64,000 nucleotides of DNA from Gemmatimonadota bacterium (lineage in GTDB: Bacteria; Gemmatimonadota; Gemmatimonadetes; Gemmatimonadales; Gemmatimonadaceae). Below are positions 56,118 to 63,793 of the stretch, in pieces. A program made the translations under genes and the position numbers. The DNA is taken from assembly GCA_026387915.1 (NCBI GenBank), contig JAPLKS010000020.1, forward strand, positions 1 through 64,000, in the 5' to 3' direction. Below the pieces are notes generated by a model. That model had not been told where the DNA came from and searched no databases. It worked only from the letters and a program-made list of their open reading frames with translations. Positions within the stretch are counted from its first letter, which is position 1, and each line of letters begins with the position of its first letter.

Positions 56118-56846
56118 CTACGGGGTTTTTGGGGGTACGGACGCTTGTTTGAGCGAATCTTGGAGGCCTCGGAGGGCAACGGAGTCCACCACCTTCTTGG
56201 TCGGAATCTTGAGCGGGGGCGGGGGGGCCTTTTCTGGGGTTCCGGCGGCGAATGCGGTCAGGACCGCATTCATCCAATCCCAGTCCTGGGCCCCGAAATA
56301 GGCCTTGCCGTTCACAAAGAAGGCCGGCGTCCCACGTACCCCTTTCAGCCGGGCATCGTCCTCGGCGGCATCAAGGCGCTGCTGATGGGTCCGGCTCGCG
56401 GCACAGGCGGAAAATGCCGTGGTGTCCAGCCCCATTTCGCCTGCGTACCCGCGTAGGGTGTTCGGGATATCAGGTTCCCGTTTCCATTTGTCCTGTCGGG
56501 CGAACAGCAGCTCGTGCATCTCCCAGAACTTTCCCTGCGCTGCGGCGCAGACCGTGGCTGCCGACCCAGCGACACTGCCGCGATGCCACGCGAGATCGAT
56601 GACCGTGAGACGGAGTTTCCCAGTCTCTACCCAATTTCGCCGCAGCAGCTCGGCGCCAGCCGTGGAGAACTGTCGGCAATCGTCGCACACAAGATCGTCG
56701 TAGTAGGTGAACTGAATAGGCGCTGTTGTCTCTCCCTGTACGTACGCCACCGGTGAGGTGGCGTCGGCTTGACGGGACTCGCCTCGAGAGCAGGCCGCGA
56801 GGGCGGTCACGAGGGCAGCGGCGACTATCGGAACGACTCGACGCAT
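56118..56846 (-). CDS. DsbA-like thioredoxin-fold lipoprotein
   Basis: 242 residues. The lipobox is ALAACSRG. The active-site motif is CDDC (YDDLVCDDCRQF near residue 55), and RGTPAFFVNGKAY holds the cis-Pro loop near 170. The arrangement matches the DsbA/DSBA-like thioredoxin family acting on periplasmic disulfides. CDDC is unusual compared with CPHC, so the redox potential may differ. A Pro-rich tail follows the fold. TTATAG precedes the ATG by 7 nt; AGGT is nearby as an alternative weak ribosome site. Confidence 0.85.
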   Translation of the reverse strand: MRRVVPIVAAALVTALAACSRGESRQADATSPVAYVQGETTAPIQFTYYDDLVCDDCRQFSTAGAELLRRNWVETGKLRLTVIDLAWHRGSVAGSAATVCAAAQGKFWEMHELLFARQDKWKREPDIPNTLRGYAGEMGLDTTAFSACAASRTHQQRLDAAEDDARLKGVRGTPAFFVNGKAYFGAQDWDWMNAVLTAFAAGTPEKAPPPPLKIPTKKVVDSVALRGLQDSLKQASVPPKTP

Positions 56847-56994
56847 CGGGCACCTATAAGGAACGAGGAGACAGTCGGGAGCATATTCGGCGCCGGAACA
56901 TCACACCGCACGCAGTGCGGTGTCGACGGAAGATCGCGCCACAGGAATCTTTGCGCTGGTACGTCCTCGCGCCACCGCTTGCTCGCCTTCGCGA

Positions 56995-57023
56995 TTGACG
57001 CACCGGTGACCGTCTACTACCCT
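56995..57023 (+). promoter_or_regulatory. his operon promoter
   Basis: TTGACG (56995-57000), 17 bp, TACCCT (57018-57023), then 7 nt to the leader-peptide ATG at 57031. Transcription would begin at the ATG itself. The -10 is weak by consensus; the spacing is ideal. The gap 56847-56994 shows nothing else. Confidence 0.55.
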
Positions 57024-57030
57024 TCTTGTT

Positions 57031-57117
57031 ATGACACGCCGCTTTCATCTCCACGACCTGCACCACCACGCCCTGACGGGTCGCGGTATCATGTCGTGCG
57101 TTCGAGTGGCTGTCTAA
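57031..57117 (+). CDS. hisL: his operon leader peptide
   Basis: 28 codons. Five are His (57046, 57052, 57061, 57064, 57067), four of them within codons 8-13. It ends at TAA 57115-57117, 27 nt before the terminator stem. No Shine-Dalgarno; leaderless translation is likely. Stalling at His codons when His-tRNA is scarce should favour read-through into hisG. Confidence 0.82.
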   Translation: MTRRFHLHDLHHHALTGRGIMSCVRVAV

Positions 57118-57144
57118 AGCGCTCTGATCTGCCTCAATGATTCC

Positions 57145-57176
57145 GGCCCGTCCTCTCTTGGACGGGCCTTTTTTTT
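57145..57176 (+). terminator. his attenuator terminator
   Basis: GGCCCGTCC (57145-57153) pairs with GGACGGGCC (57160-57168), 9 bp, loop of six, followed by eight T's. It lies 21 nt before the hisG ATG. CACGAC in the leader (57052-57057) can pair with GTCGTG (57093-57098), a possible protector hairpin. Confidence 0.88.
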
Positions 57177-57197
57177 CTCGCCACATCTCAGTGACTC

Positions 57198-58061
57198 ATG
57201 CTTCGCATCGCACTTCCCAATAAAGGACGCCTGCACCAAGACTGCCGTGAACTGCTCGCGGACGCTGGACTTGCGGTTCGCGCATCCAGTGAACGGGCGC
57301 TGACCGCATCGCTGGGTGGTGAGTTCGAGGCCATCTTTGTTCGCGCGCAAGATATTCCCGAGTTCGTCGCAGACGGCGCGGCGGACGCCGGTATCACCGG
57401 GTGGGATCTCGTGGTGGAATCGGGGCGACCGTTGACCTCTCGGCTGGACCTCGCCTTTGGTCGATGCACGATCGTCGTCGCCACGCGTGAGGACAGCGGC
57501 ATCCGCGCCGTCGCTGACATTCCCGAGCAAAGCCGCGTGGCCACCGTGTTTCCAAATATCACGCGCACATTTTTCGCGGACCAAGGCAAGTTGGTGGTGC
57601 TGGCCCCGGTCTCTGGTGCCGTGGAAATCGCACCGCACCTCGGCATCGCCGATGTCATTGTGGACATTACCTCCACGGGGTCTACGTTGCGCGTCAACGG
57701 ACTGCGCCCGGTGTGTACGGTCATGGAATCAAGCGCGCGCCTCATCAGCGCCGCCGCGCCACTCGCCGATGTCCAAAAAGTTCGGGCGCTCGACGAGCTC
57801 GTTATGGCGCTGCAATCCGTGCTCGCCGCGCGTGGGCGACGATATGTGATGGCGAACGTGCCGCGCGCGCGCCTCGAGGAGGTAAAGCGCGTGTTGCCCG
57901 GGATCTCAGGACCCACCGTCATCGACGTGATGAACGGCGGGGCGATGGTCGCCGTGCACGCTGTCGCGCCAGCCGACACAATCTTCCGCACCATCGCCGA
58001 CCTCAAGGCACTCGGCGGCGAGGGCATCCTCGTCACGCGCATTGAACGGTTAATGGCATGA
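57198..58061 (+). CDS. hisG: ATP phosphoribosyltransferase, long (HisG-L) form
   Basis: 287 residues. First step of histidine synthesis. LRIALPNKGRLHQDC, FVADGAADAGITGWDLV, and the PRPP-site region IADVIVDITSTGSTLRVNGL are typical. The C-terminal 70 residues (ARLEEVKRVLPGISGPTVIDVMNGGAMVAVHAV) form the regulatory ACT-like domain of the long form, so HisZ is not required. Overlaps hisD by 4 nt (ATGA). Confidence 0.96.
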   Translation: MLRIALPNKGRLHQDCRELLADAGLAVRASSERALTASLGGEFEAIFVRAQDIPEFVADGAADAGITGWDLVVESGRPLTSRLDLAFGRCTIVVATREDSGIRAVADIPEQSRVATVFPNITRTFFADQGKLVVLAPVSGAVEIAPHLGIADVIVDITSTGSTLRVNGLRPVCTVMESSARLISAAAPLADVQKVRALDELVMALQSVLAARGRRYVMANVPRARLEEVKRVLPGISGPTVIDVMNGGAMVAVHAVAPADTIFRTIADLKALGGEGILVTRIERLMA

Positions 58062-59359
58062 TCACCGTGGCCGTTCGCGCCGACGTCTCGCGCTTGTCCG
58101 CTGCCGAGCGGACCATCCTCTTTGATCGATCAACCAGTGCCGACCCGGCGATTCGAGCGGCAACCGCTCGGCTCATTGAACGCGTGCGCCTCGAAGGGGA
58201 CGCAGCCCTCATGGCGATGGCGCGCGAATTTGACGGAGCATCACTCGAGGCACTCGAGGTCCCACGCACGGCATGGCGTCGCGCACTGGAAACACTGGAT
58301 CCCACGCTCATCGCCGCTCTCGAGCGTGCGGCCGAAAATATTCGGCAGGTGCACGAAGCCTTCAAGCCGGTCGCCCGTGAAGTCGTGACGGCGGATGGCG
58401 TGGTCGTGGGGCGGCGTCCCGATCCCTTGGCGCGTGTGGGGGTGTATGCGCCGGGTGGACGCGCCACGTATCCGAGTAGCCTGCTGATGGGCGCCGTCCC
58501 CGCTCGCGTCGCGGGGGTTGGCACCGTGATCGTCTGCTCGCCCCCAACGGCCACAGGACTGCCGGCGGCAGTGCTGCTCGCGGCCGCCGAGATTGCTGGT
58601 GTGGATCGTATGTTCGCCGTTGGGGGAGCCGGCGCGATCGCTGCGCTCGCATTCGGCACCAACAGTATTCCGCGAGTGGATCGTATTGTGGGGCCGGGCA
58701 ATGCGTACGTTGCAGAGGCGAAGCTTCAGGTTGCTGGCACCGTAGCGATCGATTCACCGGCAGGCCCCAGCGAACTCTTGGTCATCGCGGATGAGTTTGC
58801 GGACGCGGACGTTATCGCACGCGAAATTGTGGCGCAGGCGGAGCATGACCCGCTCGCTGCCGTCGTCCTTGTGACCACCGCGCCATTGCTGATCGACGCA
58901 GTGGAACGGGCGCTCGCGCCACTCATCGCCACCACACCTCGCGCGATGATTGTTCGCGAGGCGCTCGCCGCTCGCGGTGGGTTGGTCACCGCTGCAACGC
59001 TCGCCGAGGCAGAAGCATTTGCGGCGGAGTACGCGGGAGAACATGTGTTGGTAGCCTGCCGAGACGGCGACGGCGTCACCGCGCGGCTTCGCAATGCCGG
59101 CACCGTTTTTGTCGGCACCGCAAACAGTGTCGCGTTCGGCGATTATCTCAGCGGCGCCAACCATGTGCTGCCGACGGGTGGTTTGGCGAGGAGTTATTCT
59201 GGACTATCCACGATCGATTTTTATCGCTGGACGACGTGGCAGCGCGTCGACCGTGCGGCCGCCGCGCGTCTCGCCGCAGATGTAGGAATCCTCGCGGACG
59301 CCGAGGGATTGCCGGGGCACGCCGCCACGGCACGACACTGGATGGAGGGGACACCATAA
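58058..59359 (+). CDS. hisD: Histidinol dehydrogenase
   Basis: 433 residues. Oxidises histidinol to histidine in two NAD-dependent steps. GVYAPGGRATYPSSLLMGAVPA, IVGPGNAYVAEAKLQVAGTVAIDSPAGPSELLVIADE and the zinc/catalytic His/Glu region (AEHDPLAAVVL; GANHVLPTGG) are clear. The stop shares its last A with the hisC start (TAATG). Confidence 0.96.
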   Translation: MITVAVRADVSRLSAAERTILFDRSTSADPAIRAATARLIERVRLEGDAALMAMAREFDGASLEALEVPRTAWRRALETLDPTLIAALERAAENIRQVHEAFKPVAREVVTADGVVVGRRPDPLARVGVYAPGGRATYPSSLLMGAVPARVAGVGTVIVCSPPTATGLPAAVLLAAAEIAGVDRMFAVGGAGAIAALAFGTNSIPRVDRIVGPGNAYVAEAKLQVAGTVAIDSPAGPSELLVIADEFADADVIAREIVAQAEHDPLAAVVLVTTAPLLIDAVERALAPLIATTPRAMIVREALAARGGLVTAATLAEAEAFAAEYAGEHVLVACRDGDGVTARLRNAGTVFVGTANSVAFGDYLSGANHVLPTGGLARSYSGLSTIDFYRWTTWQRVDRAAAARLAADVGILADAEGLPGHAATARHWMEGTP

Positions 59360-60417
59360 TGCGCCGCAGGACGACGCAACTCGCGCGCGAGGACCTGGCG
59401 AAGATTCCGCTGTACAACGCCGATGCGCGCGTGGAAATCAACCTCGCTGACAACACGAATCTCTGGGGATCACCGCCGGCGGCGATCGCGGCCATGCAGT
59501 CGGTGGTCGACGGTGGCGCCGCAGGCTACCCTGATCTCTATGGTGCCTCGCTCAAACAGGCCGTCGCGCAGATTCATGGCGTTGAGGCGTCCTGCGTGGT
59601 CACGGGGAACGGTTCGGACGACGTGCTCGACTGCGCGGTGCGCGCGTTCGCTGGGGCGGGCGATCTCGTGGCGCACCCCGATCCCACGTTCGTCATGCTC
59701 CCAATCTTTGCGCAAATCAACGGCCTCCGACCAGTGGCGGTTCCGCTCACGGCTGACCATCAAATGGATGCTGACGCGCTGCTCGCGACCGGCGCGCGCA
59801 TTATTTATCTCTGCACCCCCAACAATCCCACCGGCACCGCCACACGTCCCGAAACAATCCTTCGGATCATTGCCGAAGCACCGGGGCTCGTGATCATTGA
59901 CGAAGCGTACGCCGAGTTCAGTGGCATGGACGGATTGATCGGGCAGGCGGCTGCGCTTGAGCGTGTGCTGGTGTGCCGTACGCTGTCCAAGGCATACGGC
60001 CTTGCCGGACTGCGCATCGGATACGGCGTGGCATCGCGTCACATCATTGACGCGGTCGAACGATCGCGTGGTCCGTACAAACTCAGCACGGTCGCTGAAG
60101 CAGCCGGCGTCGCCGCCATGCTCCAGGACGCAGACTGGGTACGCACGCACGCAGCGGAATGCGTCCGCAATCGCGACCGCTTGGCAGCGGAACTTGCCAC
60201 GCTCGGGCTGAGGGCGCTTCCGTCCGACGCGAACTTTCTGTGCATTCCAACTCCGCACGCTCTGGCGATCACGGCGCACGCACGATCACTTGGCATCGCG
60301 CTCCGCGCCTGGGCCAACCTTCCCAACATTGGTCCGGCACTACGTATTACCGCCGGTCCGTGGCCGATGATGGAGCGCGCATGCAGCGCCATCCGAGAGG
60401 CACTCGCGTGCGTGTGA
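59359..60417 (+). CDS. hisC: Histidinol-phosphate aminotransferase
   Basis: 352 residues from the ATG at 59359. PLP-dependent transamination. NLADNTNLWGSPPAA, VTGNGSDDVLDCAVRAF, YLCTPNNPTGTATRPE, VIIDEAYAEFSG, and the Schiff-base Lys in CRTLSKAYGLAGLRIGY near residue 213. The frame is open upstream inside hisD but has no other support. Confidence 0.95.
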   Translation: MRRRTTQLAREDLAKIPLYNADARVEINLADNTNLWGSPPAAIAAMQSVVDGGAAGYPDLYGASLKQAVAQIHGVEASCVVTGNGSDDVLDCAVRAFAGAGDLVAHPDPTFVMLPIFAQINGLRPVAVPLTADHQMDADALLATGARIIYLCTPNNPTGTATRPETILRIIAEAPGLVIIDEAYAEFSGMDGLIGQAAALERVLVCRTLSKAYGLAGLRIGYGVASRHIIDAVERSRGPYKLSTVAEAAGVAAMLQDADWVRTHAAECVRNRDRLAAELATLGLRALPSDANFLCIPTPHALAITAHARSLGIALRAWANLPNIGPALRITAGPWPMMERACSAIREALACV

Positions 60418-61001
60418 CGTTATTCGACTACGGCGCGGGAAATCTCCATTCTCTGGCCAAGGCACTGCAGGGGAGAGGTCGCGTCGTGGTGATCGAACCA
60501 AATCCAATCCGTGCGATTGAAACAGACTTTCTCGTCTTACCTGGCGTTGGCGCCTTTGGAGCGGCCTCCGCCGCGCTGGCTCCGGGCCGTGATGCTATGG
60601 CGACCGCAATCCGCGCCGGATTACCGACGTTGGGAATTTGTCTCGGTATGCAGCTGCTGTGCGACGCCAGCGACGAAGGGCCTGGTGACGGACTCGGCAT
60701 CGTGCCAGGGCGGGTCGAAAAACTGCGCGCGCGGCACACACCGCAAATCGGGTGGAACACCATTGATGACACCCGCGACGTACTCTTTGCAGCGCCGAGA
60801 CTCGGCATTGCATACTATGCCAACCGCTATGTGTGCCGCCCCACAGACCCTGATGTGGTGATCGCGTGGTCCGTGCATGAAGCAGATCGTTTTCCTGCGG
60901 CTATTCGGTGCGGTCGGGTGATTGGCGTGCAATTCCACCCAGAGAAAAGTTCGGCGCCCGGCCTCGCTTTTCTGCAACGCGTCATTGCGGAGGCTGCATG
61001 A
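60408..61001 (+). CDS. hisH: Imidazole glycerol phosphate synthase, glutaminase subunit
   Basis: 197 residues, GTG at 60408 with GAGAGG 7 nt before; GTG at 60414 is an alternative. FDYGAGNLHSLAKAL, the nucleophile Cys in LGICLGMQLLCD near residue 80, and the His/Glu in IGVQFHPEKSS near 174-179 form the triad. Works with HisF. Confidence 0.95.
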   Translation: MRVTLFDYGAGNLHSLAKALQGRGRVVVIEPNPIRAIETDFLVLPGVGAFGAASAALAPGRDAMATAIRAGLPTLGICLGMQLLCDASDEGPGDGLGIVPGRVEKLRARHTPQIGWNTIDDTRDVLFAAPRLGIAYYANRYVCRPTDPDVVIAWSVHEADRFPAAIRCGRVIGVQFHPEKSSAPGLAFLQRVIAEAA

Positions 61002-61711
61002 TTGTCATTCCCGCTATCGATCTTCGGGATGGATGTGTCGTGCAGCTGGTCGGCGGCGATTTTGCAAAGGAAGCGGTGCGCCTCGACGATCCGCGCGAAG
61101 TCGCACAACGGTGGACGCGGCTTGGTTTTTCGCGACTCCACATCGTCGATCTCGACGCCGCAACGGGGCGCGGATCCAATGCGCCGATCGTGCGCGAGTT
61201 GTTGCGCGATGCCAGCGTGCAGATACAGGTCGGCGGAGGTATTCGGACGACGGATCAAGTGACAGAGTTGTTCGACGCCGGCGCAACGAGTGTGGTGGTG
61301 GGCACGCGTGCGCTCGAAGATCGGGACTGGCTCGACGAAATGGCACACGACCACCCCTTTGGGATCATCGTGGCCGCCGATGTACGTGAGCGTCGCGTCG
61401 TCACGCATGGATGGGCGCGCGATTCTCGACGCTTGATTCTCGATGTGATCGAGGATCTCGCGGGACTGCCACTCGCGGGATTGCTGGTCACGGCGGTTCA
61501 CCGTGAGGGACAAATGAAGGGCACGGATCTGCCGCTGATGGAAGACGTCGCAGAGGCGAGTGCCTGGCCGGTCCTCGCCTCTGGCGGTATTGCTTCGCTC
61601 GCGGATGTACGTTCGCTCGAGGATCGCCGCATTGCCGGTGCGGTCCTTGGTATGGCGCTCTATACCGGTGCCATTGATCCCCACGTTCTTGTTGAGGAAT
61701 TTGCGCAATGA
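60998..61711 (+). CDS. hisA: ProFAR isomerase
   Basis: 237 residues, TIM barrel. VIPAIDLRDGCVVQL holds the first catalytic Asp, LHIVDLDAATGRGSN, QVGGGIRTTDQV and LLVTAVHREGQMKGTDL follow; the last has the second catalytic region (usually TDIxRDG, here TAVHREG). ATGA overlap with hisH, and its stop overlaps hisB. Confidence 0.93.
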   Translation: MIVIPAIDLRDGCVVQLVGGDFAKEAVRLDDPREVAQRWTRLGFSRLHIVDLDAATGRGSNAPIVRELLRDASVQIQVGGGIRTTDQVTELFDAGATSVVVGTRALEDRDWLDEMAHDHPFGIIVAADVRERRVVTHGWARDSRRLILDVIEDLAGLPLAGLLVTAVHREGQMKGTDLPLMEDVAEASAWPVLASGGIASLADVRSLEDRRIAGAVLGMALYTGAIDPHVLVEEFAQ

Positions 61712-62253
61712 ACACGCCTGTCATCATCACGCGCGAAACAAGCGAGACGGTCGTGCGTGTCGAGGCCGTGGTCGGCACCGGCGTCGCGCAAATCAAAACG
61801 CCTGAGCGTTTCCTTGATCATATGCTCACCGTGCTCGCCCGGTACTCCGGCGTCGATCTCACAGTATCCGCCACTGGTGACCTGCGCCATCACATCATTG
61901 AAGATGTGGCGCTGGCAGTCGGCGCCGCGCTCGCTGGTATCGTCCCGCCCGGTGCAGCGCGTTACGGCGAACGCACGGTCCCTATGGACGAGGCGCTCGT
62001 GCAGGCGGTGCTGGATGTCGGCGGACGGCCGTTCTACCGCGGCCCGTTGCCCAGCACACTGTACGAACACTTTATGCGCTCGTTCAGCGATGCGTCAAAG
62101 TTTACCCTGCATATCCGAGTGCTGCGCGGTTCCGATCGCCACCACGTCATTGAAGCGGCATTTAAGGCGCTGGGGTTTGCCTTGCGTCAGTCGCTCAGCG
62201 ATACCGGTAGCGTCTTCAGTACGAAAGGCGCGGTCCGGTTGGAGCGGTCGTGA
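61708..62253 (+). CDS. hisB: Imidazoleglycerol-phosphate dehydratase
   Basis: 181 residues, dehydratase only (no phosphatase domain). The metal-binding repeats are [12 protein letters not shown] near residue 66 and [19 protein letters not shown] near 145, with [17 protein letters not shown] near 36. The family usually has His where this reads Tyr (ARYSG). Overlaps hisA and hisF by 4 nt. Confidence 0.94.
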
Positions 62254-63017
62254 CGCTCACCCGCCGGCTCATCGTCTGTCTCGATGTGCGCAATGGTCGC
62301 GTCGTCAAAGGGACCAATTTCGTGGGACTCCGTGACGTGGGAGATCCCGTCGCGCTCGCCGAGCAGTACGAACGCGACGGGGCGGATGAATTGGTGTTTT
62401 TGGATATTGCCGCAACGCACGAAGAACGAGCGACACTCCTCGACGTCGTTCGGCGTACGGCAGAGCGACTGTTTATTCCACTGACGGTCGGTGGCGGCAT
62501 TCGTTCGGTTGAGGACATCGCCTCCGTCTTGCGCGCAGGCGCCGACAAAATCGGAATCAATTCGGCGGCTGTGCATAACCCGTCGCTGATCAATGAGGGC
62601 TCGTCGCGATTCGGCGCGCAATGTATCGTTGCGTCTATTGATGCCAAGCGCGAGGGAGATCGCTGGGTGGTCTACACGTCCGGCGGCCGTACGCGCACGG
62701 ACCTCGACGCGGTAACATGGGCACAGGAGTGTGCGACGCGCGGTGCCGGGGAGATTTTGCTCACGAGCATCGATCGTGACGGTGCTCGCACCGGTTACGA
62801 CATTGCCCTCACGCAGGCCATTTCGTCTGTGGTCGATGTGCCGGTGGTCGCCAGCGGCGGGGCGGGGCTCCCTGAGCACGTCGCCGCGGCGATTGCCGAC
62901 GGGGGGGCGGACGCCGCCCTCGTGGCCGGTATTCTTCATGACGGAGTGACCACGATCGCGGCACTCAAAAGCGCGATGCGTATGGCCAACCTTTCAGTAC
63001 GAGACACTGCCGCATGA
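62250..63017 (+). CDS. hisF: Imidazole glycerol phosphate synthase, cyclase subunit
   Basis: 255 residues, TIM barrel, GTG start overlapping the hisB stop. [19 protein letters not shown] has the catalytic Asp near residue 12. [13 protein letters not shown] and the second catalytic Asp in [15 protein letters not shown] near 174 follow. Pairs with HisH. Confidence 0.96.
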
Positions 63018-63793
63018 ACGAATCTGCCGATACGCTGATGCAAGCCGCCGCCGAAGTTGCGCGCATCGCCGGTGCGACGGCGCTCCAGTACTTCCACACG
63101 AATGTCGCCGTGGAATGGAAGGCAGACGGCACGCCGGTAACCATCGCTGATCGCGCCGCGGAGCGCGCCGCCCGTGACTGGATCGCCCAACGGTTTCCGG
63201 ACGACGGCATTCTCGGTGAGGAGTTCGGTGAGCAGGTAGGGCGAAGTGGGCGTCGGTGGATTCTCGACCCCATCGACGGAACCAAGTCGTTCGTGCGCGG
63301 CGTGCCACTGTGGGGTTCTCTGGTTGCCGTCGCCCATGACGACGTCGTACTGGCGGGCGCCGCGTCCTTTCCGCCTCTCTCAGAACTCATCGCGGCCGCT
63401 CCTGGCTGTGGCGCGTGGTGCAACGGCGTACGCGCCCACGTCAGCACGGTGGATACCATTGAGAGTGCCACCATGCTCGTCACAGACGACCGAACCCCAG
63501 GTCCGGCCGCCGCGCATCGCGGCTGGCAGGAGCTACACACGCGCGCCGCGGTCAGCCGAACATGGGGTGACTGCTACGGCTACCTCATGGTGGCCACCGG
63601 TCGCGCAGAAGTCATGATTGATTTCACGCTCGGGGACTGGGACGCCGCATGTTTTCAACCGATCATTACGGAAGCCGGTGGTGTGTTTACGGATCTCGTG
63701 GGGCATCCGACCGCGTTCGGCGGCAATGCGGTCGCGACCAACGCCGCGCTTGATACCGCCGTCCGCACGCTGTTGCGAGGTTCCACACCATGA
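63014..63793 (+). CDS. hisN: Histidinol-phosphatase, inositol-monophosphatase type
   Basis: 259 residues. FIG/IMPase fold with the metal motifs [10 protein letters not shown] near residue 67, [25 protein letters not shown] near 82, and the late [18 protein letters not shown] near 206. The phosphatase step is missing from hisB and is supplied here. ATGA overlap with hisF. Confidence 0.93.

Follow-up and report, generated by a model that had tools for sequence, protein, structure and literature searches.

A probable ribosome-mediated attenuator before the histidine operon of a Gemmatimonadota bacterium, and leaders of the same build with other sensor codons

The DNA analysed here (the window) is a stretch of 64,000 nucleotides from a Gemmatimonadota bacterium whose genome assembly (G000) comprises 3.58 Mb in 23 contigs. 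Just before hisG it contains a short His-rich open reading frame (ORF) followed by a hairpin, which raises the question of whether this region controls the histidine operon and, if so, by what means. The initial annotation read it as a his-operon attenuator and knew of none described for this kind of organism. His attenuators have been described in Proteobacteria and some Firmicutes, according to PMC9413887 and PMC2965389. In the literature searched, with subscription journals outside its scope, neither a Gemmatimonadota attenuator nor a Tyr leader before phenylalanine hydroxylase is described. The attenuator reading is supported by conserved parts, alternative helices, a coevolving extension and promoter spacing. 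On sequence comparison and modelling, 57031-57176 is very probably a ribosome-mediated transcription attenuator of the his operon.

Leader, operon and alternative helices

The leader peptide ORF (MTRRFHLHDLHHHALTGRGIMSCVRVAV, 57031-57117; this and all other window features are on the forward strand) has 28 codons, five of which encode His (codons 6, 8, 11, 12 and 13), with four of these in codons 8-13 as annotated. His11-His13 (57061-57069) are the likely sensor codons, and the codons of His6 (57046-57048) and His8 (57052-57054) both lie 5' of them. The locus has the run of end-product codons in a short leader ORF that is expected of a leader-peptide attenuator. At least four His in six codons occur in 3 of the 766 short ORFs of the window, and shuffling the upstream region 20,000 times produced such an ORF in 19 cases. 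Downstream are hisG (57198-58061), which encodes the long form of ATP phosphoribosyltransferase (Pfam PF01634 and PF08029, NCBIfam TIGR00070), and hisD, hisC, hisH, hisA, hisB, hisF and an inositol-monophosphatase-family gene (58058-63793, Pfam). Since the downstream genes are hisGDCHABF, the codon run fits the pathway. The gene 5' of the leader (56118-56846) runs divergently; therefore, a co-directional transcript from upstream is unlikely. Judged by HisG, the closest named relative (96%) is a Gemmatimonadetes metagenome-assembled genome (L106), a relationship that fits Gemmatimonadota as the phylum.

An intrinsic terminator is predicted between the leader ORF and hisG, the first structural gene. 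Its 9-bp stem (GGCCCGTCC/GGACGGGCC, 57145-57168) pairs 57145-57153 with 57160-57168, is called by a terminator scan and is backed by covariation. The distances given by the initial annotation are confirmed: 27 nt (57118-57144) separate the ORF from the stem, a tract of eight T's (57169-57176) follows it, and a further 21 nt lead to hisG.

The RNA of 57031-57176 folds far better than shuffled sequences (z = -4.8). Its minimum-energy folds, whether ribosome-free or with a ribosome placed at the stop codon, contain the terminator together with a protector hairpin (57052-57098), in which CACGAC (57052-57057) pairs with GTCGTG (57093-57098) and, further in, CCC (57071-57073) pairs with GGG (57078-57080). 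This hairpin would hide the antiterminator strand, segment 2 (GACGGGTCG-C-GG-T-ATCAT, 57075-57092), whenever the His codons carry no ribosome. Segment 2 contains a core, CGGGYCG, that encodes TGRG. Its partner, segment 3 (ATGATTCCGGCCCGTC, 57137-57152), overlaps the 5' arm of the terminator.

GACGGG is present at 57075-57080 and at 57161-57166, and CCCGTC at 57147-57152, as first noted. The competing pairing that these matches suggested near the His codons does exist, but the helix has 16 bp rather than six, and the 6-nt match is its core. When the leader is blocked in silico at the His codons, 57075-57092 is freed for the 5' arm of the terminator. With the A site at His11, segments 2 and 3 are modelled to pair at 57075-57083/57144-57152, 57085-57086/57142-57143 and 57088-57092/57137-57141, and a stall at His11 or His12 gives an antiterminator probability of 0.89 or 0.76. 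In silico, therefore, the terminator has a mutually exclusive antiterminator that depends on a ribosome at the sensor codons.

In the proposed mechanism, RNA polymerase would start at the leader ATG or within a few nucleotides of it, and translation would begin at the 5'-terminal AUG with no Shine-Dalgarno site involved. Under a shortage of His-tRNA, the ribosome would stall with His codon 11 or 12 in its A site and cover the strand of the protector hairpin that holds the His codons, which would leave 57075-57092 free just past the ribosome's front edge. This strand would capture the emerging 57137-57152 before the 3' arm of the terminator is made, resulting in read-through into hisG. With plenty of His-tRNA, the ribosome would proceed to the stop codon and segment 2 would be covered or back in the protector hairpin. 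With segment 2 unavailable, the terminator would form and transcription would end at the T-tract. Judging from the sequence and the models, the his enzymes appear to be made only when histidine is short.

The switch was also modelled across 90 leaders. The mean antiterminator probability is 0.77-0.79 with the A site two to six codons before the last His, 0.48 at the last His and 0.07-0.09 three to six codons past it; both states are seen in 76 of the 90 leaders. In a control with a shuffled terminator arm, the probability still rises to as much as 0.49 at the most favourable stall position; the sequences are GC-rich throughout, and base composition thus accounts for part of the signal. When the terminator arm is free to pair anywhere in the leader, incomplete transcripts on which the ribosome has passed the His codons show short upstream pairings, which disappear once the terminator is complete. 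In some relatives the return of termination is not clear when the modelled ribosome stands at the stop codon. In the full-length transcript at equilibrium, the terminator wins even with a stalled ribosome; therefore, antitermination would have to be kinetic and occur during transcription. Kinetic antitermination is usual for attenuators.

Conservation and coevolution of the leader

A total of 109 hisG upstream regions were gathered, of which 97 from Gemmatimonadota, Myxococcaceae and Candidatus Eisenbacteria are non-identical. A His-codon cluster, defined as at least four His in nine codons, is present in 92 of the 97, and in 90 of them a terminator is called as well. The search for similar leaders before related hisG genes, which the initial annotation had suggested, therefore finds both the His codons and the T-run stem conserved. 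Carriers include Gemmatimonas, Roseisolibacter, Corallococcus, Myxococcus, Pyxidicoccus, Hyalangium, Archangium and Candidatus Eisenbacteria. Among the five regions that lack the cluster, two have too little upstream sequence (L050, L066), one has N's in the leader (L021), and two precede a hisG that differs in type or context (L027, L029). When 395 Gemmatimonadota genomes were searched with a covariance model of the His leader (R1), 185 gave matches at E <= 0.01, a set whose tail includes weak and non-His matches. In the Myxococcus phylum, about 50 of the 146 genomes contain strong matches (E < 1e-13).

Several single loci were also observed. The genus of the window has two hisG lineages, both with leaders; in L028 and L030 a different hisG (~35% identical) follows a His leader with a different terminator sequence. 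One genome (G122) has two His leaders, one before hisG and one before a hisC-like aminotransferase ~10 kb away (L152/L153). A record named Candidatus Kuenenia stuttgartiensis (L094) has a Gemmatimonas-like hisG with a leader, and is probably mislabelled or part of a mixed bin. One Eisenbacteria locus (L280) did not look like a leader.

Covariation supports the terminator, in which 5 of 10 pairs covary and 36 cells are changed on both sides, compared to 14.5 in shuffled alignments. It is also clear in relatives for the inner local hairpin. The nine core antiterminator pairs do not covary above shuffles (further pair types in 133 of 500) because the core hardly varies, and so the claim of coevolution rests on the extension of the antiterminator. 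The native extension partners have a mean pairing energy of -15.8 kcal/mol versus -13.6 when permuted, with 0 of 2000 permutations as good (z = -6.6), and they outperform partners exchanged with the closest relative (p = 0.006). No extension-pairing signal appears in three controls of equal relatedness, reversed or complemented, and a permutation control for another region pair shows no preference for native partners.

These results bear on whether the leader could be irrelevant to the terminator, which would then act as a constitutive, unregulated terminator or insulator beside a fortuitous His-rich ORF. GC-rich hairpins with T-runs are common, and shuffled sequences yield 0.8 terminator-like sites each in the region scan. 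However, the His run, segment 2, terminator and promoter spacing are jointly conserved in 90 leaders, and segments 2 and 3 coevolve, which leaves this explanation with hardly any probability.

The core CGGGYCG follows the last sensor codon in 66 of the 92 His leaders (5.4 expected), and in 23 of 37 Tyr leaders (1.7 expected), which are described below. Seven leaders keep the RNA core though its reading frame or peptide differs, which points to a constraint on the RNA and against a function of the peptide. The TnaC peptide arrests the ribosome in response to tryptophan, and by analogy the conserved HHG-P-T-GRG peptide might stall the ribosome on free histidine and so set the switch. A [TSA]GR motif does occur in 62 of the 92 His leaders; however, the RNA core is retained in seven His leaders that lack GR in the peptide, and the core stays constant even though other pathways have other sensor codons (Tyr, Phe, Thr). 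In addition, segment 2 is freed by a stall before the core and not after it. Arrest by the nascent peptide is therefore most improbable, and stalling at the His codons remains the preferred explanation.

Promoter and start of the leader

A -35 element, TTGACG (56995-57000), and a -10 element of the TANNNT type, TACCCT (57018-57023), are separated by a spacer of 17 nt, and 7 nt separate the -10 element from the leader ATG. A sigma-70 promoter scan did not pick up this -10 element because TACCCT fits only as TANNNT. A TANNNT motif ~12 nt 5' of the start codon is a mark of leaderless bacterial genes (PMC3160421). In the window the first T of TACCCT is 13 nt 5' of the A of the ATG and there is no room for a Shine-Dalgarno site, the arrangement by which a leaderless mRNA is recognised in sequence.

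This arrangement is conserved among the relatives. A TTGAC-like -35 element (at least five of six positions), 17-18 nt, TANNNT, 5-11 nt and the leader start follow one another in 61 of the 92 leaders, with the TTGAC-like element at the same place as in the window, versus a mean of 0.085 leaders and at most two in shuffles. By eye, the Myxococcaceae that fail the strict test have TTGAC followed at comparable spacing by a GTG start. Genome-wide, a like promoter pattern occurs at 13 sites in G000 compared to 4 in a reversed control, and none of the 13 is a further amino-acid leader.

The initial annotation had placed +1 at the leader ATG. A promoter directly before the ATG is indeed conserved, while the word "at" is too exact, since the start is a prediction good to a few nucleotides. 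A start far upstream, which would have counted against the annotation, was checked by promoter comparison, and the promoter position right before the leader ATG is again what the relatives share. Because the promoter sits 5-11 nt before the start in 61 of the 92 leaders, a leaderless or near-leaderless leader peptide appears to be conserved, with a predicted start site.

Attenuation could also be real with the leader ORF read by ordinary initiation from a longer 5' UTR and a promoter farther upstream. The start site is known as a prediction, the -10 element fits only TANNNT, and some relatives have several in-frame starts, all of which would suit such an arrangement. The promoter-to-start pattern of the 61 leaders, far above the 0.085 expected, argues against it, as does the similar spacing seen by eye in the Tyr, Phe and Thr leaders. 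A longer 5' UTR is accordingly considered unlikely, and a start at or next to the leader ATG is preferred.

Known systems and leaders with other sensor codons

In the hisL leader of E. coli and Salmonella, a run of His codons precedes alternative antiterminator and terminator structures and a T-run just before hisG. The window leader resembles hisL (PMC9413887) in having a His run in a short ORF, an antiterminator that competes with a terminator and a T-run just before hisG. It differs in that segment 2 lies inside the leader ORF, with the core mostly 6-8 nt past the last His codon; the ORF continues for ~15 codons after; the protector hairpin includes the sensor codons; the leader is predicted to be leaderless; and the phyla are other ones. 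It works like His_leader (RF00514) and falls outside that Rfam family, which has no match up to E = 10 in 56980-57220. The same interval has only terminator-like sRNA matches below the Rfam threshold.

Control by a T-box or by a protein of the HisR type, in place of ribosome-mediated attenuation, is a further explanation, since both regulate his genes in other phyla (PMC9413887). At the gathering score, however, no Rfam leader family, T-box included, matches the window or 14 related loci, and such control is very improbable. Ribosome-mediated attenuation also has parallels elsewhere. His leader peptides are described before hisS/hisZ in bacilli (PMC2965389) and for his genes of Eubacteriales and Erysipelotrichales (PMC9413887). 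Compared by these descriptions, which mention no leaderless start, the Firmicutes leaders also have His-codon runs ahead of an attenuator, and differ in phylum and partly in target. Leaderless leader peptides are shown experimentally for trpL of Sinorhizobium meliloti (PMC7298713) and for the polycysteine leaderless ORFs of mycobacteria (Canestrari et al. 2020, as cited in PMC9031893). They likewise place the leader ORF at the first nucleotides of the transcript and control the operon by translation of sensor codons; they differ in having Trp or Cys sensors and unrelated sequences, and the start in the window is predicted.

Weak extra matches of R1 proved to be other attenuators of the same build. 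In the source genome, a Tyr-codon leader (MNVGAATYFYYYYRTPVTGRGGRG) with a terminator and a leaderless-type promoter (L149, G000:C4:27120-27243, minus strand) precedes genes for DAHP synthase and a TyrA-like prephenate dehydrogenase, the latter with a match below the NCBIfam equivalog cut-offs. A bacterial small SRP RNA (RF00169) lies a few kb from this attenuator (L149, 210-305). A Tyr-codon leader with a terminator is present at 37 of the 60 DAHP-synthase and phenylalanine-hydroxylase loci fetched (20 and 17, respectively). Phenylalanine 4-hydroxylase makes Tyr from Phe. Its Tyr leaders are those of L150, L151, L155 and 17 of the 30 loci L210-L239, and the phenylalanine 4-monooxygenase passes the NCBIfam cut-off. 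Phe-codon leaders of the same chassis precede prephenate dehydratase in L346, L351 and L358 (by Pfam) and in L353 and L357 (by eye); in another (L342) the contig ends. A Thr-codon leader (MTNAAIRTTGTTTTTTTRLTGRGRECLRR) precedes a bifunctional aspartokinase-homoserine dehydrogenase in L160 and L161. A Thr-rich short ORF (ITTTTTGTTTRFGGRG) with a hairpin was also seen in Myxococcus xanthus (L281, ~1490-1620). The gene after it looks by eye like a short threonyl-tRNA synthetase, and a Pfam scan of 100 aa of this gene gave no match.

The Tyr, Phe and Thr leaders (L149, L150, L151, L155, L160, L351, L357) share promoter spacing, a sensor run, CGGGYCG and a GGCCCGT terminator with the His leader, and differ in sensor codons and target genes. 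In the Tyr leaders, the antiterminator probability is 0.69-0.78 at the Tyr run and <0.05 five to eleven codons past it. The pair GACGGG/CCCGTC occurs in 43 of 85 His leaders and CACGGG/CCCGTG in 24 of 30 Tyr leaders, so that one antiterminator pair is G-C in the former and C-G in the latter. A covariance model built on the Tyr leaders and the two Thr leaders (R2) conversely detects His leaders, that of the window at E = 2.5e-4.

Among candidates that were set aside, the R1 matches of <=22 bits in the source genome (L143-L148) do not look like leaders. The core pattern ACGGGYCGNGG occurs there at 38 sites versus 41 in a reversed control; among the 30 inspected, with the his site and seven others left out, a terminator follows only the Tyr leader.

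The mechanism proposed here is classical ribosome-mediated attenuation, a known kind; new are the phyla, the placement of segment 2 within the leader ORF and the repeated use of the design in different pathways. It is conceivable, with about even confidence, that Gemmatimonadota amino-acid operons share one leaderless attenuator chassis in which the sensor runs (His, Tyr, Phe, Thr) are exchanged, including Tyr sensing on phenylalanine hydroxylase, and that the cassettes are related by duplication and codon exchange and not by independent origin. Taken separately, common descent of the cassettes is likely from their sequences, though for the His and Tyr leaders it is inseparable from convergence because GC-rich terminators supply much of the model score.

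These leaders would extend leader-peptide attenuation, found mainly in Proteobacteria, Actinobacteria and some Firmicutes, to Gemmatimonadota, Myxococcaceae and Candidatus Eisenbacteria, with an RNA family that is absent from Rfam. The conserved promoter spacing may offer a natural test of attenuation that begins with leaderless translation, and a chassis common to his, tyr, phe and thr genes would be a concrete case of attenuator evolution and re-specification. The leaders also provide ready regulatory annotations for a phylum where almost none were found.
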